Origin: Halieaceae bacterium
Lineage (GTDB): Bacteria; Pseudomonadota; Gammaproteobacteria; Pseudomonadales; Halieaceae
Direction of reading: 5' to 3'
DNA: 32,847 bases
Assembly (NCBI GenBank): GCA_902623175.1
Contig: CACNSR010000021.1
Location: 1 to 32,847 of the forward strand
Part shown: piece after piece, positions 4,453 through 31,696 of the stretch
How positions within the stretch are numbered: position 1 is the stretch's first letter
Layout of the letters: each line of letters opens with the position of its first letter
Program-made: the position numbers and the translations under genes
The notes under the pieces: generated by a model
The model's database searches: none
Told to the model about the DNA's origin: nothing
The model's input: the letters and a program-made list of their open reading frames with translations, nothing else

Positions 4453-4868
4453 GACCTGTCTTTCCTTCGAACGCGAAGCACCAGGGTGTGATCGATAATC
4501 TCGTAGCCGTGCTGCTCCGCAATCAGGTGCTGTCGTCGCTCGATCTCCTCGTCAATAAATTCAATGACTTCATTGGTATCGACATCCACCATGTGGTCGT
4601 GGTGGTGATCCGGCGCCATCTCAAAAACGGAATAGCCTGCCTCAAAATTATGCCGAATGATCAGGTCAGCGGTTTCGAACTGGGTCAGCACGCGGTAGAC
4701 CGTAGCCAGCCCGATGTCTTCACCGGTATCGCGCAGGCGCTGGTAAAGATCTTCCGCGCTCAGGTGATCTCCCTGCTCAGAGGCGTCGCTCAACATGGCT
4801 AAGATCTTCAGCCTTGGCGCGGTGACTTTAAGGCCCGCCTTTTTAAGCTCTCTATTTCGTGAGGCCAT
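4449..4868 (-). CDS. fur: Ferric uptake regulator Fur
   Basis: Iron-responsive repressor; Fe(II)-Fur dimers block iron-uptake genes. The 139-aa product has the winged helix (KKAGLKVTAPRLKIL to IGLATVYRVLTQFE, residues about 8-70) and the metal site PDHHHDHMVDVD. The Cys-x-x-Cys that many Fur proteins carry just after HHDH is absent: the segment reads MVDVDTNEVIEF, so structural zinc cannot be bound there. The gene is convergent with recN (3-nt overlap at the stops) and divergent from bamE across 58 bp, so one short region must carry both promoters. Confidence 0.95.
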   Translation of the reverse strand: MASRNRELKKAGLKVTAPRLKILAMLSDASEQGDHLSAEDLYQRLRDTGEDIGLATVYRVLTQFETADLIIRHNFEAGYSVFEMAPDHHHDHMVDVDTNEVIEFIDEEIERRQHLIAEQHGYEIIDHTLVLRVRRKDRS

Positions 4869-8333: not shown

Positions 8334-11300
8334 GTGACACATCACGACGGAGACTGGGGCATATTGAGCACCCAGCAGGACGAGGATCAGGCGCGTGCAC
8401 AAGCTGTAAGCGATCCTGCGGCTTATCACGCAGCCATCGCTGCAAAAGAACTGCACTGGTACGACTCCAACGGTAAGCAGTGGGTCTCGCAAGCGGCTGC
8501 AGACGCCTGGCAGGGCTGGCATGCAGCATCGGGCGCAGAGGGCTCTGCTGACGCGAGCTGGACCCCTTGGACTTCAGCGCTTGACGCAGACGCGGCACCT
8601 TTCTATCGCTGGTTTGTCGACGGGCAAACCAACGCCTGCTTCAACCTTCTCGATCGCCACGTGTTGTCTGGCCGCGGCAAAAACCAGGCGCTCGTCTTCG
8701 AGGGTGACCGCTGGGACCCCTCCAAAAACGAAGGACGCGGCGGCCCAGTTTTCGAGCAGCGCCTCTCTTACCGGGAATTGTTGGTTGAAGTGGCCCTGCG
8801 CGCGCGGGTGCTAAAAAGCCTGGATCTCAGCGCCGGGGACCGCATTGCGCTGAACCTGCCCAACATCCTTGAGCAGATTTTTTACATTTTGGCCGCACAG
8901 CGGCTTGGGGTGATTTACACCCCCGTTTTTGGCGGCTTTTCTGCGAAAACATTGTCTGACCGCATTCATGATGCCGGCGCGAAAGTCGTGATTACCGCTG
9001 ATGGTGGCTATCGCAATGCCGAGGTGGTCCCCTACAAAAGCACCTACACCGACCCCGCATTGGACAACTATGTGCCTCGCCCCGCGGCGATGCAGGCGCT
9101 GTCTGAGACACTGAAGTCCCGTCTGCCCGCCGATGTCGCTGAACGACTCGAGACACAGGTGACCGAGGCCGTTGCCGGAGAGATCACACTCGAGCGCGCC
9201 GATGTCATGCGCGAGCTGGGTTTGGCGCTGGAGCGCGAGCGAGGCACGGCCCCCGAAATTATTGCGGAACTTCGCACCACCGTGGCCAGCGAGTTGGCCG
9301 GCGTTAGTCACGCCGTGACCAACGTAATTGTTGTGCGCTACACAGGTAACGACATTGTCGAGCACAGCCGTGATCGCTGGTCGCATAATCTGGTCGACGA
9401 GGTCGAAGCGGCATTTTTGGCTGACGCCGGTGTGGCAGATCGCTCTTCACTGGATAGTCTGGACGATAACGCCTTTTGGAAAGCCGTTGGCTCCAGCATC
9501 CCGGCAGTGCCGGTCGAGGCCGACTGGCCACTGTTTATCATCTACACCTCAGGCTCTACCGGCAAACCCAAGGGCGTGGTTCACACTCACGGTGGCTGGC
9601 TGTCAGGCATCACCCACACCATGCGAACCGTGTTCAACGCCAATCAGGATGACTGCTTATATGTTATTGGCGACCCGGGCTGGATTACCGGTCAGTCGTA
9701 TCTGATCGCGGCACCACTGGCATTTGGCATGTCCACAGTAATTGCCGAGGGCTCCCCCCTCTTCCCCCATGCGGGACGCTTTGCCTCCATTATCGAGCGC
9801 AATCAGGTCACGCTGTTCAAGGCCGGCTCCACCTTCCTAAAGGCGGTCATGACCGATCCTGCGAGCGCGCAGGAAATGTCTCGCTACGACATGTCTACAC
9901 TTAAAGTCGGCACCTTCTGCGCAGAACCGGTGTCACCGGCGGTACAGAAGTTTGCGATGGAGAACATCTGTTCGCACTACATCAATTCCTACTGGGCCAC
10001 CGAGCACGGCGGCATAGTCTTTTCATGCCCGTGGGGCGACTTCAAGCCGCTGGAAGCCGACGCCAAGACCTGGCCTCTGCCCTGGATTCAGGCGCAGGTG
10101 CGCATCGTTGAGGAAACCAACGATACGGGTAGCGTGAGCCAGTGGAGAGAAGCCGAAGCCGGTGAGAAAGGTGAACTGGTGATTACCCAGCCCTACCCTT
10201 ACCTGGCTAGAACGTTGTGGGGCGCGGGTGACACGCTGGGCACCGCTGACTGGCATGGCGATATAGACCGCTTCGCAGAGGTGTACTTCAAGCGTTGGGA
10301 CGGCGAGCTGACCTACACCCAGGGAGACTACGCTCGCCGAGGTGATGAAGGCGCATTCACACTACATGGTCGTTCCGATGACGTGATCAACGTTTCGGGA
10401 CACCGCATCGGCACCGAGGAAATCGAAGGCGCGATCCTGCGCGATAAAACGCTGCGACAGGACTCCCCAGTCGGTAACGTGGTCGTGGTGGGCGCGCCCC
10501 ATGACGAAAAAGGCGAGACCCCCGTTGCTTTCCTCGTGGCCGCAGCAGGGCGCAAACTCTCCGATGAGGATCTTGCGCGATTGCAGAATCTGGTGCGCAC
10601 CGAGAAGGGCGCGACTGCGGTACCCTCAGACTTTTTGGTGGTCTCTGCGTTTCCGGAGACACGGTCAGGCAAATACATGCGGCGCACGCTGCGCGCGATC
10701 CTACTCGACCAACCATTGGGCGACCTCTCGACGCTCCGAAACCCCGAGTCAGTAGAAGAAATTCAGGGCGCGGTCGCACAGTGGCGCGACTTTGGCCGTC
10801 TGGCCGAGGCACGGCAGATTATTCAGACCTGGCGTTACCTGCGGGTCGAAACCCATCGCTTGGACGATAATCACAAGGTCGCTCTGCTGGTGATCAATCA
10901 TCCGCCGGTCAACGCGCTTAATGAACGGACACTCGACGAGCTACACACTGTTGTGCAACAGCTAGAGCATCAGGACGACGTGGATGCCGTGGTGATCACC
11001 GGCGCCCGTGGTGCATTTGTTGCCGGTGCCGACGTGAAAGAATTGCTGGAGGTAGGCGAGGCAGGTGATCTCGAATCGGCACGTACACCACCAAACGCCG
11101 CACAAGCGGCATTTGCTGCACTGGAGCAACTCGGCAAACCGGTGATCGCGGCGGTCAATGGCCCCGCACTGGGTGGCGGTAATGAACTGGTTCTGGCCTG
11201 CTCTTATGTCATCGCAGCAGAGCACGCGCAGTTTGGCCAGCCGGAAATCAATTTGAACCTGTTGCCAGGCTACGGCGGTACGCAGCGACTGGTGCGCAAG

Positions 11301-13748
11301 CTGCGTCGGCGCCGCGACGAGGCCGGCATGGCCGAGGCGCTTCGCCTAATGGTAAGTGGTCGCAATATCTCGACCGCTGAGGCGATCGACTGCGGTCTCG
11401 TGGATGAGGTCGTGACGGAAGCCGCAGCCTCGCCCGTAGAAATCGCGATGGAGCGACTCCGTGACTATTTTGCGCAACAAGGCCCGCTGGCCGCGGCACA
11501 GGAGGAGCATCAGAAGGCGCTCGCCGCGCGTGATGAAGCCATTCCGTATTCTGAGGTCATCCTCGAGCAGCCAGCGCTGAAACAGGCGCTTTCACAAATT
11601 CGCGCCAGCGGCCGTGACAAGCAAGTGGCACGTGTACTGGATGCCGTCGCTTTTGGCGCGGAAAAAGGCCAGGCTGCTGGACTGCTGCATGAGGCCGAGC
11701 TTTTTGCAGAGGCAGTCTGTGACCCTGAGTCTGGTCCAAACGGGATCACTGCTTTCCTGGAGAAGCGCAGCGCACCTCTGCCAACTCAGTTCGTTGAGGT
11801 GTCGCCCACCGCTTCAGGTGAACAGGTCGATGATTTGCTGGCATCCGGCGAATTGCTGCCCATGGGCGCCAGTTTCTTTCCCGGGGTCACTCCGGTTCCC
11901 CGTTATCAATATGGTTACGGCGTGCCGAAGTCTGCCAAGGACGGCAAGCCCGCTCATGGTGACCCGATCGAAGCCGAAATCAAACTGATCTTCGAGACGC
12001 CAGAACCCGAGCCCAATGAGGCACTGGTGTACGTGCTGGCCTCTGAGATGAACTTCAATGACATCTGGGCCATTACCGGCATCCCGGTGTCACCCTTCGA
12101 TGCGCGTGATGCCGATGTGCAGGTCACGGGCTCCGGCGGTGTGGCAATGATTGTCCGTCTCGGTAGCGAGTTAATCGCCGAGGGTCGCTTGTCAGTTGGC
12201 GACGTGTGCACCGTTTACTCGGGCCAGAGTGAACTTCTCTCTCCCGACCAGGGTCTTGACCCCATGGCAGCCGACTTCCGCATTCAAGGTTATGAGCGCA
12301 ACGACGGTAGCCACGCTCAGTTTCTGACGGTGCAAGGCCCGCAATTGCATCCCAAGCTACCGAGCCTGAGCATCGAAGAGGCCGGCTCCTATGGGTTGAC
12401 GCTGGGTACGATTCACCGGGCGCTCTATCACACGCTCGATATCGAGCCGAACAAGCGACTATTTGTTGAAGGTGCTTCAACTGGTACCGGCTATGACTGC
12501 TTGCGTAGCGCCGTGAGCAGTGGACTCAACGTAGTAGGCATGGTCTCCAATGCCGAGCGCGCTGCGCGCGTTGAAGCCGTCGGCGGTGCCGCCATCGATC
12601 GCAAAGATCCGCAGTGGGCAGACGCCTTTACCCCAGTACCCGATGACCCCGCAGAGTGGGCGAACTGGGAACGGCAAGGCGCAGGCTTTGTCGCAGCCAC
12701 AGAAGCGGCTGCAGGCGGGAGCGTTGACTATGTGGTGTCCCACGCAGGTGAGACCGCCTTCCCCCGCTCGTTCCAGACACTGGGCGAGGACGGCGTCCTG
12801 ACCTTCTACGGTGCCTCTTCAGGTTATCGCTTTACTTTTATGGGTAAGAAAGGGAGCTCGAGTCCGTCTGAGATGTTCACACGCGCTGGATTGCGTGCGG
12901 GTCAGAGCCTGTTGATTGTTTACGGACCCGGTGCCGAGGATGGCATCGTCGACCGTGTGGCGATCGAAGCCATTGAAGTGGGCTGCCAGCGCGGCGCGCA
13001 GATTGCCGTTCTGGTGGATACTGTCCCGCAGCGTGAGTTCGTCAACTCCCTTGGCTTTGGCGCGCAGGTGAAAGGCGTGGTGAGTCTCGAGGAAATCGAA
13101 CGACGTTTGGGCGATGACTACGACCCGCCCGGGCCGTTTGCGCAAATGCCCAACCCATTCACCGAGTCACAGGCGTTCAAGGAAGCCGTGAGGTTGTTCT
13201 CGGATCGCACTCTGAAGCCAATTGGTTCAGCTATCGCACCCTTCTTGCGCAACACCCTGGACAAGCGCGGCTTACCCGATGTGGTGTTTGAACGTGCGGG
13301 GCGCGATGGCCTCGCTCTCGCTACCTCGCTGGTAAAACCCAATGTGGGCAAAGTGGTCTACGCCGAGGAACTCAGCGGGCAACGCTTTACCTTCTATGCC
13401 CCGCAGGTGTGGATGCGCCAACGTCGCATCATTATGCCCAGCGCAGAGATTCGCGGCACGCACCTCAATACTGCACGTGAATTTGCAGAAATGCAGGAGC
13501 GAATCGCCGCCGCGCAGATCGACGTATTGCCGCCTCTGGCGCGACCCATCGAAGACATCGCCGAGATTCACCAGGCGATGTGGGAGAACCGCCACGGCGG
13601 TGCCAATTATGTGGTGACCCATGCGCTACCGCGTATGGGCCTCAAAACCAAAGACGAGCTTTACCGAGCCTGGGCGCTGCGTGACGCAGCCGAACGCGGT
13701 GAAGAGATTACCAAAGTCGAAACTGGATCAGCCGGAGCGCTTAGATGA
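8334..13748 (+). CDS. pcs: Trifunctional propionyl-CoA synthase
   Basis: Cytoplasmic fusion enzyme turning 3-hydroxypropionate, CoA, ATP and NADPH into propionyl-CoA. The 1804-aa length is close to the Chloroflexus aurantiacus enzyme (about 1820). An acyl-CoA synthetase part comes first: ATP loop YTSGSTGKPKG at 404-414, WATEHGG near 552, GRSDDVINVSGHRIG near 680-695 and the adenylation lysine K780 in SGKYMRRT. An enoyl-CoA hydratase follows with GADVKE near 900 and both catalytic glutamates, E951 (GGGNEL) and E971 (GQPEI). The C-terminal zinc-free enoyl reductase (about 1170-1804) has NFNDIW and the NADPH loop GASTGTGYD at 1380. All three active sites look intact. GTG start with a strong GAGAGGAGG site; stop overlaps mcr (ATGA). 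Confidence 0.93.
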   Translation: MTHHDGDWGILSTQQDEDQARAQAVSDPAAYHAAIAAKELHWYDSNGKQWVSQAAADAWQGWHAASGAEGSADASWTPWTSALDADAAPFYRWFVDGQTNACFNLLDRHVLSGRGKNQALVFEGDRWDPSKNEGRGGPVFEQRLSYRELLVEVALRARVLKSLDLSAGDRIALNLPNILEQIFYILAAQRLGVIYTPVFGGFSAKTLSDRIHDAGAKVVITADGGYRNAEVVPYKSTYTDPALDNYVPRPAAMQALSETLKSRLPADVAERLETQVTEAVAGEITLERADVMRELGLALERERGTAPEIIAELRTTVASELAGVSHAVTNVIVVRYTGNDIVEHSRDRWSHNLVDEVEAAFLADAGVADRSSLDSLDDNAFWKAVGSSIPAVPVEADWPLFIIYTSGSTGKPKGVVHTHGGWLSGITHTMRTVFNANQDDCLYVIGDPGWITGQSYLIAAPLAFGMSTVIAEGSPLFPHAGRFASIIERNQVTLFKAGSTFLKAVMTDPASAQEMSRYDMSTLKVGTFCAEPVSPAVQKFAMENICSHYINSYWATEHGGIVFSCPWGDFKPLEADAKTWPLPWIQAQVRIVEETNDTGSVSQWREAEAGEKGELVITQPYPYLARTLWGAGDTLGTADWHGDIDRFAEVYFKRWDGELTYTQGDYARRGDEGAFTLHGRSDDVINVSGHRIGTEEIEGAILRDKTLRQDSPVGNVVVVGAPHDEKGETPVAFLVAAAGRKLSDEDLARLQNLVRTEKGATAVPSDFLVVSAFPETRSGKYMRRTLRAILLDQPLGDLSTLRNPESVEEIQGAVAQWRDFGRLAEARQIIQTWRYLRVETHRLDDNHKVALLVINHPPVNALNERTLDELHTVVQQLEHQDDVDAVVITGARGAFVAGADVKELLEVGEAGDLESARTPPNAAQAAFAALEQLGKPVIAAVNGPALGGGNELVLACSYVIAAEHAQFGQPEINLNLLPGYGGTQRLVRKLRRRRDEAGMAEALRLMVSGRNISTAEAIDCGLVDEVVTEAAASPVEIAMERLRDYFAQQGPLAAAQEEHQKALAARDEAIPYSEVILEQPALKQALSQIRASGRDKQVARVLDAVAFGAEKGQAAGLLHEAELFAEAVCDPESGPNGITAFLEKRSAPLPTQFVEVSPTASGEQVDDLLASGELLPMGASFFPGVTPVPRYQYGYGVPKSAKDGKPAHGDPIEAEIKLIFETPEPEPNEALVYVLASEMNFNDIWAITGIPVSPFDARDADVQVTGSGGVAMIVRLGSELIAEGRLSVGDVCTVYSGQSELLSPDQGLDPMAADFRIQGYERNDGSHAQFLTVQGPQLHPKLPSLSIEEAGSYGLTLGTIHRALYHTLDIEPNKRLFVEGASTGTGYDCLRSAVSSGLNVVGMVSNAERAARVEAVGGAAIDRKDPQWADAFTPVPDDPAEWANWERQGAGFVAATEAAAGGSVDYVVSHAGETAFPRSFQTLGEDGVLTFYGASSGYRFTFMGKKGSSSPSEMFTRAGLRAGQSLLIVYGPGAEDGIVDRVAIEAIEVGCQRGAQIAVLVDTVPQREFVNSLGFGAQVKGVVSLEEIERRLGDDYDPPGPFAQMPNPFTESQAFKEAVRLFSDRTLKPIGSAIAPFLRNTLDKRGLPDVVFERAGRDGLALATSLVKPNVGKVVYAEELSGQRFTFYAPQVWMRQRRIIMPSAEIRGTHLNTAREFAEMQERIAAAQIDVLPPLARPIEDIAEIHQAMWENRHGGANYVVTHALPRMGLKTKDELYRAWALRDAAERGEEITKVETGSAGALR

Positions 13749-21812: not shown

Positions 21813-22203
21813 GGGGGCGTTACGGATTCGACGACGGTAACGAAACCTGCGGTGCATGCCGTGATGGTAGCCAATCACGTAAATCCAAAGCTGCAAACTA
21901 TTAGTTGCCAATGACGACAACTACGGTGCACAACTGGCTGCGTAAGTAGCCCTTTGTAACACCACCCAGGTGCTTCGGCCCTGGCGGTCGCAAGCAAGGT
22001 GCCAGTACCGCGCTTTTGACTGTCATATAGAACTGGATCGCAGTGACTGATGTCTCGGCTGCCACTGTTAAATTTTTCGAGACTCGCGGTCAACGTCCTG
22101 ACCGTTGGGCTGTTGTCCGTTAAATCAATTAACGGAAACTAAGCATGTAGAGCCAAAGGCAGAGTGCTGGCGGACGCGGGTTCGACTCCCGCCGCCTCCA
22201 CCA
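21813..22203 (+). ncRNA. ssrA: Transfer-messenger RNA (tmRNA, 10Sa RNA)
   Basis: Tags proteins from stalled ribosomes together with SmpB. The 391-nt gene opens with GGGGGCG and GGATTCGAC and closes with a T-arm (GGGTTCGACTCCC) and CGCCTCC-A-CCA. The ends pair over 7 bp and include the G3-U70 pair that makes it an alanine acceptor. The tag frame starts at 21908 and reads ANDDNYGAQLAA, then TAA (21944-21946); with the charged alanine the tag is A-ANDDNYGAQLAA, two residues longer than the common ANDDNYALAA type. The 3' end is encoded, including CCA, and is duplicated at 28691-28728 and 31322-31344 as integration sites. Confidence 0.97.
22178..22203 (+). repeat. Attachment site copy 1 (3' end of ssrA; left end of element A)
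   Basis: The last 26 bases of tmRNA (GGGTTCGACTCCC ... CCA) recur at 28703-28728 with one change, and the last 23 recur at 31322-31344 with one change. This copy is the functional one inside ssrA, directly before the integrase gene. Confidence 0.85.
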
Positions 22204-22256
22204 TATTCAGAGCATCGCCATAACTTTCAACGGGTTATGCGCGGTGCGGCTGATTT

Positions 22257-22298
22257 TGTATCACCCAAAAACATCAATTTGCTACATCGGGTGATACA
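22257..22298 (+). promoter_or_regulatory. 10-bp inverted repeat covering the integrase ribosome site
   Basis: TGTATCACCC (22257-22266) and GGGTGATACA (22289-22298) are perfect inverted repeats with a 22-base loop. The right arm contains GGTGA, the only ribosome-binding-like site before the TTG start at 22301, so the RNA hairpin would hide it. The stem core TATCACCC/GGGTGATA is kept in the second integrase copy (31400-31437) although the loop differs. The right arm also recurs at 28655-28664 near the other end of the element, so it may also be an integrase arm-binding site. Confidence 0.5.
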
Positions 22299-22300
22299 TT

Positions 22301-24001
22301 TTGAAAACAATCCCTTATCTGACTAGCCGCGGTGGCGTCTTCTATTTCAGAAGAGTAGTGCCTCTGAACATTAGATTTTTTATCGGTCGCCGCGAAATAA
22401 TACGATCACTGGGAACACATGATCTGAAAGTCGCACGAAAGGCAGTCATCGAAATGGCAGACGAGCTGGACAAGCTATTTTCAAAGATGCAAATGGGCGC
22501 TGAACTGCTGTCTCCCAACGACTTGGCGGAGTTCTCCAACGCGTTCTGCGCATCTAAAACTCAAGCACTAATAGCCGAAGCTCTAGCTGATTTCGATGAT
22601 CGCAAAATAGAAGACGAAGAGTGGGAAGCCTTTCATGCGCGAACATTTAAACAAGAGATACTCGACGACTTGAGATACAGCCGTCTATCCAGTGCAGAGC
22701 CGGAAGTAGATGCTCTGCTATCCCAACACAATGTTAGCTTGGATCAGGGTAGCGCCCTTTATAAACAGCTGTGCAGAGCGACGTTGCAAGGTCTTGCGGA
22801 TTGCTACGAAAAGGCAGAGATCATCATCAAGGGGGGCTTTGACGATCCACGAGTGGTGGCTGAGCAAACAGTCAACGTTACCCAAATTACTGGCCCCAAT
22901 AGCGGAGATGTGACTTTTGGTATTGCGATAGAGAAATATTTGAACGATCAAAAAACCAGCTGGAGCGCGAAACAATTCACGAACCAATCAGCCAAACTCC
23001 AGTACTTTTTGACTTACCTTTCCGAAGCCAACAACTGTGACGCCACACAGTTCGCCTTATCGTCAGTTACCAGCGCGATAGCTCGGAGTTACAAAGAGCA
23101 TCTTCAAGTAGCGCCATCAAACGCCAAAAAGAAATATCCGAATCTGTCGCCGATTGAGCAAGTTAAGGCCGCTAGGCAGGACAACGCAGCTCCGATGAGT
23201 TCGGAAACGCAGAACAATTACTTGCAGTGTCTAAGCACCCTCTACAGCTTTGCTGAATCTGAATTGGATTATCAGGACAAGAATCCGTTCAAAGGGCGTG
23301 GCTACGCAAAAGCAACGAGGCAAAAGGCACGTGATCGCAGATCCGCTTTTAGTAACGACCAGCTGACCAAACTATTCTCTTCTCCAATTTACATGGGCTG
23401 TAAGTCGCTACCCACCTGTCATACAGAGGGCAGATTGATACCCCGCGATTCCAACAAGTACTGGGTTCCCTTGATTGGTCTATTCACGGGTATGCGACTG
23501 CAAGAGATCCTTCAGCTGTATCTTGAGGATGTCTACCAGCACGATGGGTTATGGGTTTTTGATTTAAACGTGAACCATCCAGACAAAAAACTGAAGTCCC
23601 TGCAATCAAAACGCCTCGTGCCGATTCACTCAGATCTAATTGAACTGGGGTTGATTGATCTGTGGAAAAAGAAAGGAACAGATTTAAAAGACAAACGACT
23701 CTTTGAAGACGCCAAAGTTGCTAGTGACGGCACTTACTCCAGTACCTTTTCCAAGTGGTTTAGTCGCTATCTAACGAATATTGGCATCAAGACGGGCAAG
23801 ACCAGTTTCCATTCATTGCGCCATAACATGAAAGATGGGTTCAGAAATTCGGGAGCTTCAGATGAGCTGGCTGAGAATTTCATGGGACGATCAACGGGTA
23901 CTACAGGTGAAGCATATGGAAGCGGCTATTCGGTACAAAGCCTTCACGATGCCCTACACAAAATTAAATTTACAACTCAAGCCTCTGTTTTAAAAAACTG
24001 A
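22301..24001 (+). CDS. int: Tyrosine recombinase (site-specific integrase) of the ssrA island
   Basis: Integrates and excises the island at the ssrA 3' end. The 566-aa product opens with the YLTSRGGVFYFRRVVP element of DUF6538-type integrases. It then has a core-binding region (about 200-340) and the catalytic domain: R399 in TGMRLQE, the lysine hairpin near KSLQSKRLVPIHSD, H504-x-x-R507 in HSLRHN, an Arg in place of the usual second His in FMGRSTG, and the nucleophile Y539 (or Y543) in EAYGSGY. The start is TTG (22301); an in-frame stop lies just upstream. It begins 97 bp after the tmRNA end on the same strand, so readthrough from ssrA would transcribe it. Confidence 0.92.
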   Translation: MKTIPYLTSRGGVFYFRRVVPLNIRFFIGRREIIRSLGTHDLKVARKAVIEMADELDKLFSKMQMGAELLSPNDLAEFSNAFCASKTQALIAEALADFDDRKIEDEEWEAFHARTFKQEILDDLRYSRLSSAEPEVDALLSQHNVSLDQGSALYKQLCRATLQGLADCYEKAEIIIKGGFDDPRVVAEQTVNVTQITGPNSGDVTFGIAIEKYLNDQKTSWSAKQFTNQSAKLQYFLTYLSEANNCDATQFALSSVTSAIARSYKEHLQVAPSNAKKKYPNLSPIEQVKAARQDNAAPMSSETQNNYLQCLSTLYSFAESELDYQDKNPFKGRGYAKATRQKARDRRSAFSNDQLTKLFSSPIYMGCKSLPTCHTEGRLIPRDSNKYWVPLIGLFTGMRLQEILQLYLEDVYQHDGLWVFDLNVNHPDKKLKSLQSKRLVPIHSDLIELGLIDLWKKKGTDLKDKRLFEDAKVASDGTYSSTFSKWFSRYLTNIGIKTGKTSFHSLRHNMKDGFRNSGASDELAENFMGRSTGTTGEAYGSGYSVQSLHDALHKIKFTTQASVLKN

Positions 24002-24152
24002 AGGGAAGTAATAAAAGGATGATTTACTGGTTATTTTTTAACCACATATCCCATAATTTAAAAGCCTCATTTGGGCGCTATCAGCTCACTACTTTAAAGG
24101 TCTATATAGGTGTTCATATCTACCTAATCCCCCCTATGAGCCAAAAGTTGTC

Positions 24153-25352
24153 ATGCCCAAACTGAATTTATTTTTGAGTGCAGATGTGGAGGTTGAAGCT
24201 TCTAATATTATTTTTAATCAGTCCCTTTTAGCCCCCGAACCAACACTACGTACCAAAGCACAGCGAAAGGCCCTCCACTGCATTTTGAGCAATGTGGGCA
24301 AGTACAAAACACAACCCATCTTGTTCAACATGCGCAATCAGGCTAATGCGCCTGAGCAATACAATCCGCATGGTTATGGTCATAAACCACTTCTGGATGT
24401 TCTCAAACAGCTACAGCGGAATGGATTGTTGACCATCAAGAAAGGAACAGCTCGCTACCTGAAAAGAGCAGACGGAGACTTTGAAGAAGCCAAACTTTCG
24501 TCCTTCAGTGCAACGATTGAGCTAGTCAGCTTATGTACTGAGCTGGGATATACCCCCAAAGCGACAGCCTCAAATCCCCAGCAGTATGTCGAACTAAAGA
24601 ATATGGGCGGCAAGCTTATCCGGTTTGAGGAGACACCCTACTCCGACCATACCAACGCGCTAATGGCTGAGTATTGCGATTACCTGAATGAGCAACATAT
24701 TGAGGTGGATGGGGAGGAGCTTGGGTATTTTCATCTCGTAAGGAAGTACAAAGACTGGGACGGGTCAAGGAAGCTGACACATGGAGGGAGAATATGGCAT
24801 CCATTCGTCTCCTTTAGTGGTGCAAAGCGCGGACGCGCCAAGATAAACGGCTCGCCTGTAGTCACCGTTGATTACCCAGCTAGCGTGTTGAATGTTCTGT
24901 ACAAGCTGACGACAGGTAAATTCCTAGAGGGCGAAGACCCATACTCTGTAGATTCGCTGGCGCGATCCACGGTTAAGTATCTTTGCAACTGCATGATTAA
25001 CAACCCTTCTCAACTGTCTGCCGCCAGCGCAGCGACAAACAGGTTAGATGAGCTAACCAAAGCCGAAAGGAAGCAATTTCAAGAGGATCGAAAAAGGCAC
25101 ACCAGCATAAAGGCGATGATGAAGCTCATCACCGACCGCAACGCCCCAATCGCAGAATGCTTCTTCCAAGGTAAAGCCGCAGGTCAACGGTACGCTTGGC
25201 ACGAGCAGAACCTAGTCTTTGAAGTCGCAAGACTGCTTGCGCGTATGGATGTTCCAGCCTTAACAGTCCATGACGAATTTATCGTTCCCGTCGACATGGT
25301 CGAAGCAGTTCATGAGGTGAGGTATACGACGGGATTTGAAGGGCTTTGGTAA
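24153..25352 (+). CDS. Unknown island protein with winged helix and family-A-polymerase-like palm motifs
   Basis: 399 aa, not recognised as a named family. Residues about 30-105 look like a winged helix (LRTKAQRKALHCILSNVGKY to LLDVLKQLQRNGLLTIKKG in outline). The rest recalls a reduced DNA polymerase I palm: VTVDYPASVLNVLY (D240) resembles motif A (DYSQIELR), followed at the expected distance by GEDPYSV; R315 to K320 precede a helix as in motif B; and LTVHDEF (H373-D374-E375) is an exact motif-C core. No 3'-5' exonuclease motifs and no room for a thumb are seen. It follows int by 151 bp, same strand. A role in element replication or excision is a guess; polymerase activity is unproven. A degraded copy of its last codons lies at 25908-25967. 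Confidence 0.6.
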   Translation: MPKLNLFLSADVEVEASNIIFNQSLLAPEPTLRTKAQRKALHCILSNVGKYKTQPILFNMRNQANAPEQYNPHGYGHKPLLDVLKQLQRNGLLTIKKGTARYLKRADGDFEEAKLSSFSATIELVSLCTELGYTPKATASNPQQYVELKNMGGKLIRFEETPYSDHTNALMAEYCDYLNEQHIEVDGEELGYFHLVRKYKDWDGSRKLTHGGRIWHPFVSFSGAKRGRAKINGSPVVTVDYPASVLNVLYKLTTGKFLEGEDPYSVDSLARSTVKYLCNCMINNPSQLSAASAATNRLDELTKAERKQFQEDRKRHTSIKAMMKLITDRNAPIAECFFQGKAAGQRYAWHEQNLVFEVARLLARMDVPALTVHDEFIVPVDMVEAVHEVRYTTGFEGLW

Positions 25353-25803: not shown

Positions 25804-25910
25804 TCAAACCCGTTCATCACCCTCAGACATCGCACTCATGGCCCTCAGAGCCGCATAGGCGGTTCGTCTAGACTGAGCGACCTGCTCTGAAATCATTGCG
25901 CTAGTGGTGG
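25804..25910 (-). pseudogene. Truncated copy of the 3' end of the 91-aa island gene
   Basis: Nearly identical to 27649-27755 over about 85 bp: the shared product end is QSRRTAYAALRAMSAMSEGD. Here the stop codon has changed and the frame runs on to ERV before a TGA at 25804-25806. Upstream codons are missing; at about 25908 the sequence switches to the 3' end of the polymerase-like gene. It marks a recombination scar inside element A. Confidence 0.7.
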
Positions 25911-25967
25911 GTCCAGGTAGTACATGAGGTTAGGTATACGACGGGTTTTGAAGGCTTTTTAGCCTAG
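25908..25967 (+). pseudogene. Residual 3' end of a second polymerase-like gene
   Basis: Matches 25298-25352 closely; readable as VHEVRYTTGFEGFLA and then TAG, against VHEVRYTTGFEGLW in the intact gene. No body of the gene precedes it. The rest of 25734-26087 holds no gene; this piece and the truncated copy before it are its only recognisable contents. Confidence 0.7.
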
Positions 25968-26087: not shown

Positions 26088-27548
26088 CTAAGGAATGCGA
26101 ATTCCGATAAAAAGAGGACGATTGCCCCTGATTATTCTTACGGGGATTTGACTGCCTGGCGACAATCCATCCTTTATGTTGGTGAGGTCCTCGATACTGC
26201 CAATCGCGCGCCTGCCAAGTCTCGTAAGCACATCTCCTGCTCGCACGCCTGCATCATCAGCTGGAGAATTCGGCTTCACCAAACTTACCAGTACTCCGCC
26301 GGATATTCTCGCCGCGTCCGTCTCCGTTAGCTTCATACCTAACACTGATAGAACCCCATCGGCGGACACGCTCTTATCGGCTCGCGCTACCCCGACTACA
26401 TCGAGATCACCCGCACTCTCAAGTTCACACTCAATTAGCACGGTCGCTTTATTCAAGGCGCGCGCTAATTCGGTTGTCGACATTGTGATGGCATTCGGTT
26501 CGACAGCTTCTATGTCTAAAGACTGCATCAAACTCTCTGCCACTGCTGCCTTCACGCCGAAGTTCGTTCCCTCTGGAACAGCGCCGTATCGCTCTAAGAA
26601 AAACTTCACGTTGAGCCCCGCGACGGCTACCGCGACAGCGTTACCCTCCTCATTGACTATTGGGCCACCGCTATTGCCCGGCTGAAGAGCGGCATCTATC
26701 TGAATATTTGAGAAGTTGTTATTCAGGCCGGAAACTGAGCTTACAATCCCTTTCGTAACCTTTATTGTTTTTGAAATGCTGGCGGTTGAAGAGAACGGGA
26801 AACCCGCTACGAATATCTCTTCGGCCAGCTCTGGACGAACTTTACCGATATGCAGTGCCCTATCCGGAGCAACGTTGGTTTCCAATATCGCTAAATCATT
26901 GACACTATCTGACGCTAAAACCGTTGCTGGCTTACGACGATTTTGTTGAACGAAGTTGACTGCACCACAGTCTCTAATGACATGGTCATTTGTGAGTAAA
27001 TGACCCTCTGAAGATATAAAAAAACCTGTCCCGACCGGCGATGGGCGAGGCGTCGAATTTTCTACCTCTGCCCGCGAGCTAGGATTACGGGGTGTTTTTG
27101 AAGGTGGCTGAGTCTGATTTTCTTGCCTCGCAATTTTCTGTTGCACTGCAATTTCAGTTTGCACTGAAATGGCATCTTGCAAATTAAAGTAATGCCCAAC
27201 TAATTTTCCGTTGCCCAGATCAGTGTGCCTATTCAGGCCAGAATCAAGGTAACAAAGATTACTTAGAGGTTGAGTTACCTCCTTAAAAAGGAAGACAGCC
27301 CGCCCAACAGGTGGTCTTATTAATTCCGTGCCCACTGCTCGGTTGTATGAATGATAAGAATTTGAGGAACCTGGATTACAAATAGATAGATTGTCGCCAC
27401 GGTTGGCTTTGCTTCGGTATAGAAAATCAATCTGCTGTTTAGTCATCCCCGGATCAGGGAACCAAGAAATTGACAGGGCGGGGGGCGTATATGCGCAACC
27501 AGCTCCCGTGACGAGCATTAACAACAGAATAACTAAATACTTAATCAT
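26088..27548 (-). CDS. HtrA/DegP-like serine protease with PDZ domain, probable lipoprotein
   Basis: 486 aa. A signal peptide ends in GAGC (Cys18), a loose lipobox, so membrane anchoring is likely but not certain. Residues 20-165 form an unrecognised domain with Cys pairs and a low-complexity linker. Then comes a trypsin-like S1C domain with H189 (TNDHV), D218 (VNDLAIL) and S293 (QPGNSGGP), all intact, and one PDZ domain at about 415-486 (SPADDAGVRAGDVLTRL). DegP-like proteases degrade or sense misfolded envelope proteins; cargo copies may instead process a specific partner. It lies in element A, reading against the integrase, with 91-aa and lipoprotein genes upstream. Confidence 0.85.
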   Translation of the reverse strand: MIKYLVILLLMLVTGAGCAYTPPALSISWFPDPGMTKQQIDFLYRSKANRGDNLSICNPGSSNSYHSYNRAVGTELIRPPVGRAVFLFKEVTQPLSNLCYLDSGLNRHTDLGNGKLVGHYFNLQDAISVQTEIAVQQKIARQENQTQPPSKTPRNPSSRAEVENSTPRPSPVGTGFFISSEGHLLTNDHVIRDCGAVNFVQQNRRKPATVLASDSVNDLAILETNVAPDRALHIGKVRPELAEEIFVAGFPFSSTASISKTIKVTKGIVSSVSGLNNNFSNIQIDAALQPGNSGGPIVNEEGNAVAVAVAGLNVKFFLERYGAVPEGTNFGVKAAVAESLMQSLDIEAVEPNAITMSTTELARALNKATVLIECELESAGDLDVVGVARADKSVSADGVLSVLGMKLTETDAARISGGVLVSLVKPNSPADDAGVRAGDVLTRLGRRAIGSIEDLTNIKDGLSPGSQIPVRIIRGNRPLFIGIRIP

Positions 27549-27654
27549 CTTCTTTTATTTGAGGCACTCACGGCCATTCTTCACCTGCATGCGACCTTGG
27601 TTGCCCAGTTTGCCAAATTGAATCGTTTGGCGACAGCCGTTTACTTTAAAACGC

Positions 27655-27930
27655 TTAATCACCCTCAGACATCGCACTCATGGCCCTCAGAGCCGCATAG
27701 GCGGTTCGTCTAGACTGAGCGACCTCCTCAGACATCATCGCAATAACTTGCCCTTGAATGGCTATGCACGTCTCTGGTGAGGTGTCCTCAAGACGCTTGG
27801 CAGTCTCTAACAATGATTTGATTACATGACTTTTACGGTGCGGAAACTTCAAAACTTCTGCGGTCAAAACGCCTCTCCAAATTGCTTGAGCCTTTTTTAG
27901 CAATAGCAGATTTGGTTGAGGAGTTGTCAA
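27655..27930 (-). CDS. Small island protein of about 91 aa, unknown function
   Basis: Mostly helical sequence (LLLLKKAQAIWRGVLTAEVL, then LLETAKRLEDTSPETCIAI, then SEEVAQSRRTAYAALRAMS). No domain recognised. No ATG exists; TTG at 27930 is the first usual start. The open frame continues 15 codons further up with a hydrophobic run (LLILICTCVTA) after AAGGAAAG, so an exported form with a non-standard or lost start is possible. A truncated copy of its 3' end lies at 25804-25910, showing that the gene travels with this element family. Confidence 0.5.
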   Translation of the reverse strand: MTTPQPNLLLLKKAQAIWRGVLTAEVLKFPHRKSHVIKSLLETAKRLEDTSPETCIAIQGQVIAMMSEEVAQSRRTAYAALRAMSAMSEGD

Positions 27931-28690: not shown

Positions 28691-28728
28691 GTTGGCGAAT
28701 ATGGGTTCAACTCCCGCCGCCTCCACCA
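28691..28728 (+). repeat. Attachment site copy 2 (decayed ssrA 3' end; junction of elements A and B)
   Basis: 38 bp aligned with 22166-22203 with six differences, all G or C in ssrA and A or T here; the last 26 bp differ only at 28709. Right border of element A and left border of element B. Confidence 0.85.
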
Positions 28729-28761
28729 AATTGAGAACCAGCAACATCCAAGAAAGTCCAG

Positions 28762-29068: not shown

Positions 29069-29108
29069 CCTAATGTATCTGGGCGGTAACCATCACAATC
29101 ACAACGGC
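29069..29108 (+). repeat. 40-bp direct repeat, copy 1, flanking the FG-GAP gene
   Basis: Perfect 40-bp match to 31159-31198 (begins CCTAATGTATCTGGGCGG, ends CACAACGGC). It starts 14 bp after the small frame and ends 37 bp beyond the FG-GAP stop codon. The interval between copies contains just that one gene. Confidence 0.9.
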
Positions 29109-29144: not shown

Positions 29145-31094
29145 TTAATCCGCATAATTACCTGCTTCTAGTTTCTTTTTCGCAGTCAGTGTGTAGAGCG
29201 TACTCTCATAAAAGCCGCCCTCGTTTAGTGTGTCGGCATCAGTCAACACGTAAGTGACGATGTCGATGTAGCCATCATCGTTGAGGTGCATTGGCGCGGC
29301 CCAAGGCATCCCCTGTACCTGCCAATGATCCCCATACCTTGGCGCCAAATATTTTGGCTCCACTGTAGGAAAAACTGTCGGGGGTACATCTGAAAAATAA
29401 CCGGTCCCATCGTTCAGCCATATTGAGGAAGATGCCTGTAAAGGGAAGTCGTCTTGAGGTGGTAAGGCGCTCCTTCGGTCAAAGATATCTATATGCCCAT
29501 CATTGTTGACATCCAAAAGAGTGACGAAACCCTCTCCATCAGGCGGTCTGTCACCCTCAAAGTAAATACTCTGATCTCCCAGCCTTTCATCACTTACATC
29601 GGAAAAATTCCCTTGGCCGTCATTTAGCAGCAGTTGCAGGTACCTTCCTTTGTAATAGGAATTCGCCCTCGTCTGCCCTACGACGATGTCGATATCCCCA
29701 TCATTATCAATGTCTGCAGCGGCCGCGTGGTTGTGTATCGTATTATCAACGTCGAACTTTCCATTTGGCAGGGTTATCACTTGCCTGTCAGAGAGATTTG
29801 ATTCACCTGCACTGATAAAAAGCTGGGTTGAGCTGTCAGGGGTAGATTGGAAAACAACTAAGTCACCAATTTCGTCGCCGTCAAAGTCAGCGATTAAGCT
29901 TGAGAGAATTCCGCCCGTACAACCACAGAGGGCATGCCACCTATCGCCGTGAGTGAAGTTTCCCTCGCCATCATTGATTAATATTCCCGGCCATTGCCAA
30001 GCGTCGATATCACCATCGCCGTCTATGTCCCCGGTCGCCATATAATGGGAACCCATATCAGGAAGAACAGCGCCGTTTTCTTGTCCCTCAATTTGATCGC
30101 TACGGTCATATAGCTTTCCATCAGGGCCGCTTAAGTAGAGGATGTATCGCTCAAAGACGGACTCCATATAGTTATGTGGTTCTCGAGATAGCGTCCCCAT
30201 TGCACCAACGAGAAAATCATCAAAACCGTCTCCGTTGAAATCTGTCACTGACAGGCGGTAACCGAAATCCATCCCCGCCGCGGCGCCCTCTGCGAAGATG
30301 CTATCTGACCTATATAGACCACCATTTTGGTCATTCAGAAAAATCGTTGGATAGACTTTTTGCTGCCTTACATAGCCATAAGGCATGCCCGATATTATTA
30401 GAATGTCCTCAAAACCATCGCGATTAAAATCGCCTTGGGCCGTGTTACCCGGGGCGTGATACGCGATTCCGCAGCCCATTCCACAAGAGTCACAGTCATC
30501 AAGAGTCGGGTAACACAACTTGGGCGTCTTTTCGTTAGTGAAGAAACTACCAAACCCGTAGTTCGATACTTCAAATTCTTCTGTATTCCCCGCAAGCTCC
30601 GTGTCAGCCTTTCTCGCGAATTGAGCTTTAATATACAAATTTTCGTCTACCGCCAGCGCTGACCATCCAACGGTGACTTGGCAAGTTGAATTAAGGCGAG
30701 TCTCGGGGCCGTTACAGATATCTCCAGACCAGCCCGCAAATTGGTAATCCTTGTCAGGAATGACCTCATAGGTTGCGCGCAGCACTTCCGTTAACGCTAC
30801 TTCGCACTCAGATTCGCACTCAAAGCCACTTGCTGTATTGACTACTTTTCCGCCAGCACCCACCGAGAAAGCCAATTTGTATTGAGGCGTAATTGAAGGG
30901 GAGTTGCCGCTTCTTATTTCCAGAATTGAGTCAAGTAAGCTGCTGAATATAGAGGTCACGGACTGTCGAGCGGCTTGAATTGAACCTCGCGAGTCTCTGG
31001 GTTCTTGAGCCTTAGCGTCGGCCCCGCCGTACCCTTGAGACACTACTAGAGCAACAGCCAAGGAAAAGGTGAAAACACCCCGCTTTGGACTCAT
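29145..31094 (-). CDS. Secreted FG-GAP/VCBS repeat protein
   Basis: 649 aa; the ATG at 31094 follows GGAGAG. A signal peptide (about residues 1-28, ending ADAKA) is followed by an InlB-B/bacterial-repeat domain at about 70-160 with four cysteines (FECESEC, DICNG, TCQV). Then come about seven FG-GAP blades forming a beta-propeller, each with a calcium loop such as DFNRDGFED, DFNGDGFDD, DIDGDGDID, DFDGDEIGD, DIDNDGDID and DVNNDGHID. A CDSCGMGC cluster precedes the first blade. Such propellers bind ligands or partners outside the cell; no catalytic site is visible. Only gene of element B, enclosed by 40-bp direct repeats. Confidence 0.88.
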   Translation of the reverse strand: MSPKRGVFTFSLAVALVVSQGYGGADAKAQEPRDSRGSIQAARQSVTSIFSSLLDSILEIRSGNSPSITPQYKLAFSVGAGGKVVNTASGFECESECEVALTEVLRATYEVIPDKDYQFAGWSGDICNGPETRLNSTCQVTVGWSALAVDENLYIKAQFARKADTELAGNTEEFEVSNYGFGSFFTNEKTPKLCYPTLDDCDSCGMGCGIAYHAPGNTAQGDFNRDGFEDILIISGMPYGYVRQQKVYPTIFLNDQNGGLYRSDSIFAEGAAAGMDFGYRLSVTDFNGDGFDDFLVGAMGTLSREPHNYMESVFERYILYLSGPDGKLYDRSDQIEGQENGAVLPDMGSHYMATGDIDGDGDIDAWQWPGILINDGEGNFTHGDRWHALCGCTGGILSSLIADFDGDEIGDLVVFQSTPDSSTQLFISAGESNLSDRQVITLPNGKFDVDNTIHNHAAAADIDNDGDIDIVVGQTRANSYYKGRYLQLLLNDGQGNFSDVSDERLGDQSIYFEGDRPPDGEGFVTLLDVNNDGHIDIFDRRSALPPQDDFPLQASSSIWLNDGTGYFSDVPPTVFPTVEPKYLAPRYGDHWQVQGMPWAAPMHLNDDGYIDIVTYVLTDADTLNEGGFYESTLYTLTAKKKLEAGNYAD

Positions 31095-31158: not shown

Positions 31159-31198
31159 CCTAATGTATCTGGGCGGTAACCATCACAATCACAACGGC
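31159..31198 (+). repeat. 40-bp direct repeat, copy 2, flanking the FG-GAP gene
   Basis: Identical to 29069-29108. It begins 65 bp upstream of the FG-GAP start codon, so the cassette between the copies would include the gene with its own promoter. Confidence 0.9.
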
Positions 31199-31321: not shown

Positions 31322-31344
31322 TTCGTCTCCCGCCGCCTCCACCA
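31322..31344 (+). repeat. Attachment site copy 3 (ssrA 3' end; right end of element B)
   Basis: 23 bp equal to the last 23 bases of ssrA with one change (A to T at 31326). It is followed immediately by a second copy of the element A left end (TATTCAG onward). Confidence 0.85.
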
Positions 31345-31696
31345 TATTCAGGGCATCGCCATAACTTTCAACGAGTTGTGTGCGATGCGGCTGATTTTTT
31401 ATCACCCGGAGACATCAATTTGCTACCTCGGGTGATACATTTGGAGAACAATTCCTTATCTGACTTGCCGCGGCGGCGTCTTCTATTTCAGAGAAGAAGT
31501 GCCTCTGAAAATTAGATCTTTTGTAGGTCGCCGCGAAATAATACGGTCACTGGGTACACATGATCTGAAAGTTGCACGAAAGACAGTCATTGAAATGGCA
31601 GACGAGCTGGACAAGCTATTTTCAAAGATTCAGATAGGCGCTGAACTGCTGTCGCCCAGCGACTTGGCGGAGTTCTCCAACGCGTTCTGCGCATGA
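31345..31696 (+). pseudogene. Truncated left end and integrase start of a third element (element C)
   Basis: 31345-31694 matches 22204-22553 at roughly 90% identity, covering the leader, the inverted repeat and the first ~84 integrase codons. One extra base just after the TTG (31441) shifts the frame. The correct frame is readable from 31499 (PLKIRSFVGRREIIRSLGTHD ...) until similarity stops abruptly at 31694 and a TGA follows. Remnant of an older related insertion; not functional. Confidence 0.88.

Follow-up and report, generated by a model that had tools for sequence, protein, structure and literature searches.

A gene of the divPolA2 family, for a probable palm polymerase, beside the integrase of an island at ssrA in a Halieaceae bacterium

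The polymerase family divPolA2 was described by Yutin et al. (2024) from 110 barbaviruses and other tailed phages. Their paper gives it a palm in which no thumb is recognizable and an N-terminal domain that resembles no known one, and considers both a repair DNA polymerase and an RNA polymerase as its function (PMC11348598). In the literature searched, the term was met only in this paper and its preprint, and a search made largely without subscription literature found no paper linking the family to integrases or islands. Here we analyzed a stretch of 32,847 nucleotides (the window; contig CACNSR010000021.1 of assembly GCA_902623175.1, Halieaceae bacterium), in which a 399-residue protein is encoded directly downstream of a tyrosine integrase in an island at the tmRNA gene ssrA (Table 1). 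Our preferred reading, an evenly balanced one, is that this protein is a template-directed polymerase of the superfamily of family-A and single-subunit RNA polymerases (ssRNAPs), of the divPolA2 type, consisting of a palm with short fingers behind a winged-helix-like front and lacking an exonuclease, and that it primes, replicates or gap-fills the element. The observations beneath this reading are the predicted fold, the collinear motifs, the conserved catalytic residues, purifying selection, the ends of the island and the linkage to integrases and tRNA genes.

When the window protein was compared with AUR84708, the divPolA2 representative of Vibrio phage 1.063.O, BLASTP gave an E value of 6e-6 (23% over 197 columns), and AUR84708 scored 129.7 bits (E 7.9e-42 for one sequence) with the family hidden Markov model A5, which has the window protein among its rows. 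Judged by these alignments, the protein is a member of divPolA2, and it combines a predicted palm with the PolA catalytic residues, the features that mark the family. Both proteins have their own N-terminal domain and no exonuclease, and both are encoded besides a regular polymerase, which here is a chromosomal Pol I in the same genome (G000:C4:75226-76356). Whereas divPolA2 came originally from tailed phages, the window copy lies in a bacterial integrative island, a difference that concerns setting, not homology. The motif C of AUR84708 (L183 25469-26761) is FD, the histidine being missing, and this sequence is the sole one among 81 with E at the steric-gate position; the window protein has HD and V at the same places. 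Its N-terminus was recognized here as winged-helix-like, which is not reported in PMC11348598.

A preliminary description, made from the letters of the window, had read the 399-residue protein as a possible minimal family-A-like palm. Structure prediction and fold search, which it had proposed as a check, gave a predicted palm fold, and the motifs that it quoted, VTVDYPASVL (D240), GEDPYSV and LTVHDEF (H373-D374-E375), are present in the open reading frame (ORF), with motifs A and C collinear with those of Pol I. The polymerase-like reading is supported. It had overlooked GGR (211-213) and motif B (R271xxxK275), which are present as well; in the alignment of the family with 30 Pol I rows, motifs A, B and C follow in order with equivalents of R754 and K758. 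The winged helix that it placed in front of the palm agrees with the N-terminal part, a separate globular domain. As to its claim of a reduced protein, the absence of an exonuclease held, no such family being found by Pfam and NCBIfam searches, but for the absence of a thumb the picture is divided: no Pol I-like thumb was found, VIA structural matches mostly span 142-396 or 50-399, and residues 140-210 are ambiguous in this respect. Pol I, with the same palm fold and collinear TGR, has 928 residues in E. coli and carries an exonuclease, and T7 gp1 has 883, so the window protein is less than half as long as either.

Sequence searches with the single protein gave no match in Pfam, NCBIfam or the PDB, and in Pfam searches neither it nor the family matched PF00476 at E up to 1, the curated cut-off thus not being reached. 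The PHROG family phrog_4756, of unknown function and built from virus proteins, matched residues 42-389 (E 5.6e-28) as well as all 15 members of alignment A1.

Eight residues (D240, D262, Y264, R271, K275, N283, H373 and D374) are invariant in all 32 aligned members, the window protein included, and the motifs therefore exceed chance. In a wider set of 84 sequences (the window protein, 35 chromosomal ORFs, 42 from IMG/VR, 5 of phages and 1 of a plasmid), D240, K275 and D374 are all kept in 77 of the 78 members that cover them. The remaining one, L090 (1501-2757; the same gene as L020), has glycine for the motif A aspartate and is probably a dead or changed copy. In motif C, E375 of the preliminary description does not characterize the family: of 81 members, 59 have S at position 375, 13 have A, 5 have G and 4 have E. 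Most members have HDS, as in T7 RNAP, and HDE occurs in the window protein and its relatives L002 and L003. The position of Pol I E710 and T7 RNAP G542, five residues after the motif A aspartate, has a role in sugar selection. Of 81 family members, 59 have H here, 7 have Q and 1 has E, and the window protein has V245; where Pol I has the O-helix tyrosine, 62 of 81 have N and 1 has Y, and the window protein has N283. Because these positions and position 375 are mixed across the family, sugar choice is unreadable from them. The gene is under purifying selection, with a dN of 0.215 and a dS, near saturation, of 1.42 against L002.

A search of genome contigs with the window protein found its nearest relatives, both on bacterial contigs: L002 (72% identity; a metagenome-assembled genome, MAG, of Halieaceae) and L003 (57%; a MAG of the K189A clade). 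As a lone query the protein matched nothing in phages, plasmids or viral contigs, and the family surfaced through phrog_4756. With that profile, members turned up in 5 of 369 genomes sampled from the class, in 13 of the 97 nearer ones and in none of 14 named controls. With the A5 profile (32 sequences), 24 of 398 genomes sampled from the phylum had a member, or 22 of 337 good ones; the window's own genome is counted among the matching ones in every survey. Viral contigs gave 41 relatives in the scan behind alignment A4, none in two other scans and one in a third. When the bacterial member L012 was used in tblastn, 241 phage records matched, 115 of them Rheinheimera phages, and the 40 matches listed are all hypothetical proteins except one without annotation and one, H78, that is annotated as DNA polymerase. 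A quick tree of 76 rows, with many long branches, separated the named phages from 29 of the 30 chromosomal rows with weak support (87), and placed the window protein, L002 and L003 as a trio (support 100) on a long branch. Another divPolA2 gene of the window's own genome (L080 7196-8467, G000:C2), very different from the first, lies near a cysteinyl-tRNA synthetase gene, and no integrase was found there in the 17 kb read.

Co-occurrence with integrases was surveyed on 36 bacterial loci, all with a polymerase ORF: the window, L002, L003, 13 of 14 stretches from the phrog_4756 surveys and 20 of the 30 places of the A5 survey. L083 was dropped, no polymerase ORF being called there, and short or contig-end phrog_4756 matches (G060, G369, G377, G391) were left out; the loci are not independent (L142 and L143 are from one genome, L089 and L090 are near copies), and the window's row was entered by hand. 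A tyrosine integrase is present in the stretch read in 27 of the 36, and within 3 kb in 22, of which 20 have an integrase ORF of at least 300 residues; two of the 27 are fragments (93 and 131 residues), the shorter one being among the 22. The integrase lies upstream on the strand of the polymerase gene in 17 of these 22. Two further loci, L131 and L144, have a serine recombinase; in L131 a large one (9486-11411) lies upstream of the polymerase gene, with no tyrosine integrase there. No integrase was found in 20 control stretches of 17 kb, hand-picked one each from 20 of the same genomes, on which the profile may be less sensitive because it was built from integrases of these loci. A tRNA gene lies within 170 bp of an integrase in 14 of the 21 loci scanned. 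In nine of them (L002, L003, L084, L086, L088, L091, L133, L136 and L150) this integrase is the nearest upstream of the polymerase, sometimes with other genes between, and in the other five it is on the opposite side or further off. The 115 nearest neighbour proteins are mixed, with resolvases in 5, transposases, restriction-modification and household genes; capsid or terminase was not among the 25 commonest of 78 Pfam or of 96 PHROG families.

Table 1. Features of the window around the polymerase gene
Feature	Position	Strand	Basis
tmRNA (ssrA) gene, integration target of the island	21813..22203	+	ARAGORN; Rfam RF00023, 191.8 bits
attL-like repeat: tmRNA 3' end and following bases	22181..22309	+	129-nt direct repeat, 90% identical to 31322-31450; exact shared 25-mer
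Tyrosine integrase, 566 aa	22301..24001	+	Pfam DUF6538 E 2.5e-17, Phage_integrase E 1.2e-8
Conserved non-coding stretch upstream of the polymerase gene	24002..24152	.	comparison with L002
6-5-6 inverted repeat TGGTTA-TTTTT-TAACCA	24028..24044	.	read from sequence; role inferred
divPolA2-type palm polymerase, 399 aa	24153..25352	+	ATG start
N-terminal winged-helix-like domain, about residues 15-137	24195..24563	+	
GGR 211-213, aligned with Pol I TGR 666-668	24783..24791	+	
Motif A D240, aligned with Pol I D705	24870..24872	+	
Motif B R271, K275, N283, aligned with Pol I R754, K758, Y766	24963..25001	+	helix 271-283 in model
Motif C H373-D374, aligned with Pol I H881-D882, at beta-hairpin turn	25269..25274	+	model, alignment
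84% copy of polymerase gene 3' end (25298-25347)	25910..25959	+	
Trypsin/PDZ protein	26088-27548		Pfam
91-aa ORF; protein 92% identical in L002 island	27655..27930	-	no Pfam or PHROG match
Partial internal tmRNA 3'-end copy (third copy)	28703..28736	+	
FG-GAP repeat protein	29145-31094		Pfam
attR-like repeat; right end of the island	31322..31450	+	

The island measures about 9.1 kb, its bounds following from the recurrence of the tmRNA 3' end, and the integrase beside the polymerase-like ORF is of the DUF6538 type that the preliminary description had assumed. Small ORFs without Pfam or PHROG family matches are also present, and neither database matched any of the eight larger ORFs enclosed by the att repeats to a phage structural family. 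Like the polymerase gene, the small ORF has its 3' end duplicated (25806-25899 and 27648-27741, 91%), and the duplicated ends surround different cargo genes, an arrangement resembling the outcome of a fusion of two related islands or of a cargo insertion at the end of the gene. A perfect 40-nt direct repeat (29069-29108 and 31159-31198) flanks the FG-GAP repeat protein.

Between the integrase and polymerase genes, 51 of 53 alignment columns (24006-24058) are identical in the window and L002, compared with 71% in the coding region and 50% at third positions. The non-coding stretch has no excess of RNA structure (z -0.08). The integrases and cargo of the two islands differ and the polymerase gene and small ORF are kept, so the polymerase gene and its upstream stretch move as a unit. 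In L002, the integrase lies between the arms of a 103-nt inverted repeat (2697-2799 and 4565-4667, 98% complementary), the first of which overlaps the end of a tRNA-Thr gene.

Several points weigh against the polymerase reading. Foldseek taken alone is weak (best PDB match E 5.5e-3, TM 0.26), hhalign with five Pol I rows gave a probability of 5%, and most relatives extend about 10-25 residues further at the C-terminus. N283 and V245 replace the equivalents of Y766 and E710, and catalysis or sugar choice may therefore differ. Of the 25 commonest families among the 115 neighbours, those for replication are infrequent, a DNA helicase family occurring twice. Integrase and polymerase are exchanged independently of each other: in L086 the polymerase, at only 19% identity, follows an integrase that scores 660.7 bits and is of the same type as that of the window, which itself scores 1282.3. 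None of five phage stretches viewed has an annotated integrase beside the gene, many neighbours there being unannotated, and integration can therefore not be a general requirement for the role.

A somewhat unlikely alternative is that the protein is a minimal ssRNAP or a primase, directed by its winged helix, which transcribes element genes or makes RNA primers. The palm matches ssRNAPs (T7 gp1, mitochondrial RNAP) at equal Z, and GRxY and HDSF forms are common to them and many divPolA2 relatives, but the window copy carries GGRIW and HDE, its N-terminus is not of the RNAP type as far as seen, and the residues at the positions of T7 RNAP Y639 and G542, placed through the Pol I alignment, are N283 and V245. 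Profile comparison by hhalign likewise gave a p value of 0.0079 for Pol I (5 rows) and 0.034 for ssRNAPs (4 rows), the latter alignment being confined to motif C, and the deeper run compared 30 with 4 rows. DNA polymerase is thus somewhat favoured by the profile alignments over RNA polymerase; RNA synthesis keeps its place because the ssRNAP profile had fewer rows and the structures tie.

We give a slim chance to a DNA-binding regulator, for example of excision, acting through the winged helix with a palm that no longer polymerizes. The gene adjoins an integrase, the N-terminus is winged-helix-like, the conserved upstream inverted repeat is a candidate operator, and some known excision factors are winged-helix proteins (PMC11963761), but across relatives of phages and islands only L090 has lost one of the three catalytic residues. 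Anti-phage or counter-defence cargo acting through nucleic-acid synthesis has a small chance. Restriction and methylation families occur among the 115 neighbours (GmrSD_N and Methylase_S in 2 each, EcoEI_R_C, DNA_methylase and Type_ISP_C in 1 each), but no strong PADLOC model matched (4 weak matches, each in 1 of 32 members, best E 0.0042), the gene behaves as a backbone gene in that L002 retains it with the small ORF while flanking cargo changes, and two or three copies occur in some phages.

If the protein is the polymerase that we prefer, it would be catalytically active, its winged helix would anchor it to the DNA of the element, with the conserved upstream stretch as a possible docking site, and it would prime, replicate or gap-fill this DNA around excision or establishment, beside the host Pol I. 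A bolder proposal, which we consider unlikely, is that a class of islands of Pseudomonadota that integrate at tRNA and tmRNA genes carries initiator and primase in one protein of 400 residues, in which winged-helix recognition and a family-A palm without the Pol I thumb serve the excised element, with the upstream stretch as binding site. Known since 2024 from phages, divPolA2 recurs here beside integrases in bacterial islands, which give it small elements with definite ends, whose deletion, excision and copy number are measurable. Such a polymerase would show how little of a family-A enzyme suffices to work, and the changes at its sugar-selection positions (E710 to H or V, Y766 to N) put the question of DNA or RNA within direct experimental reach.
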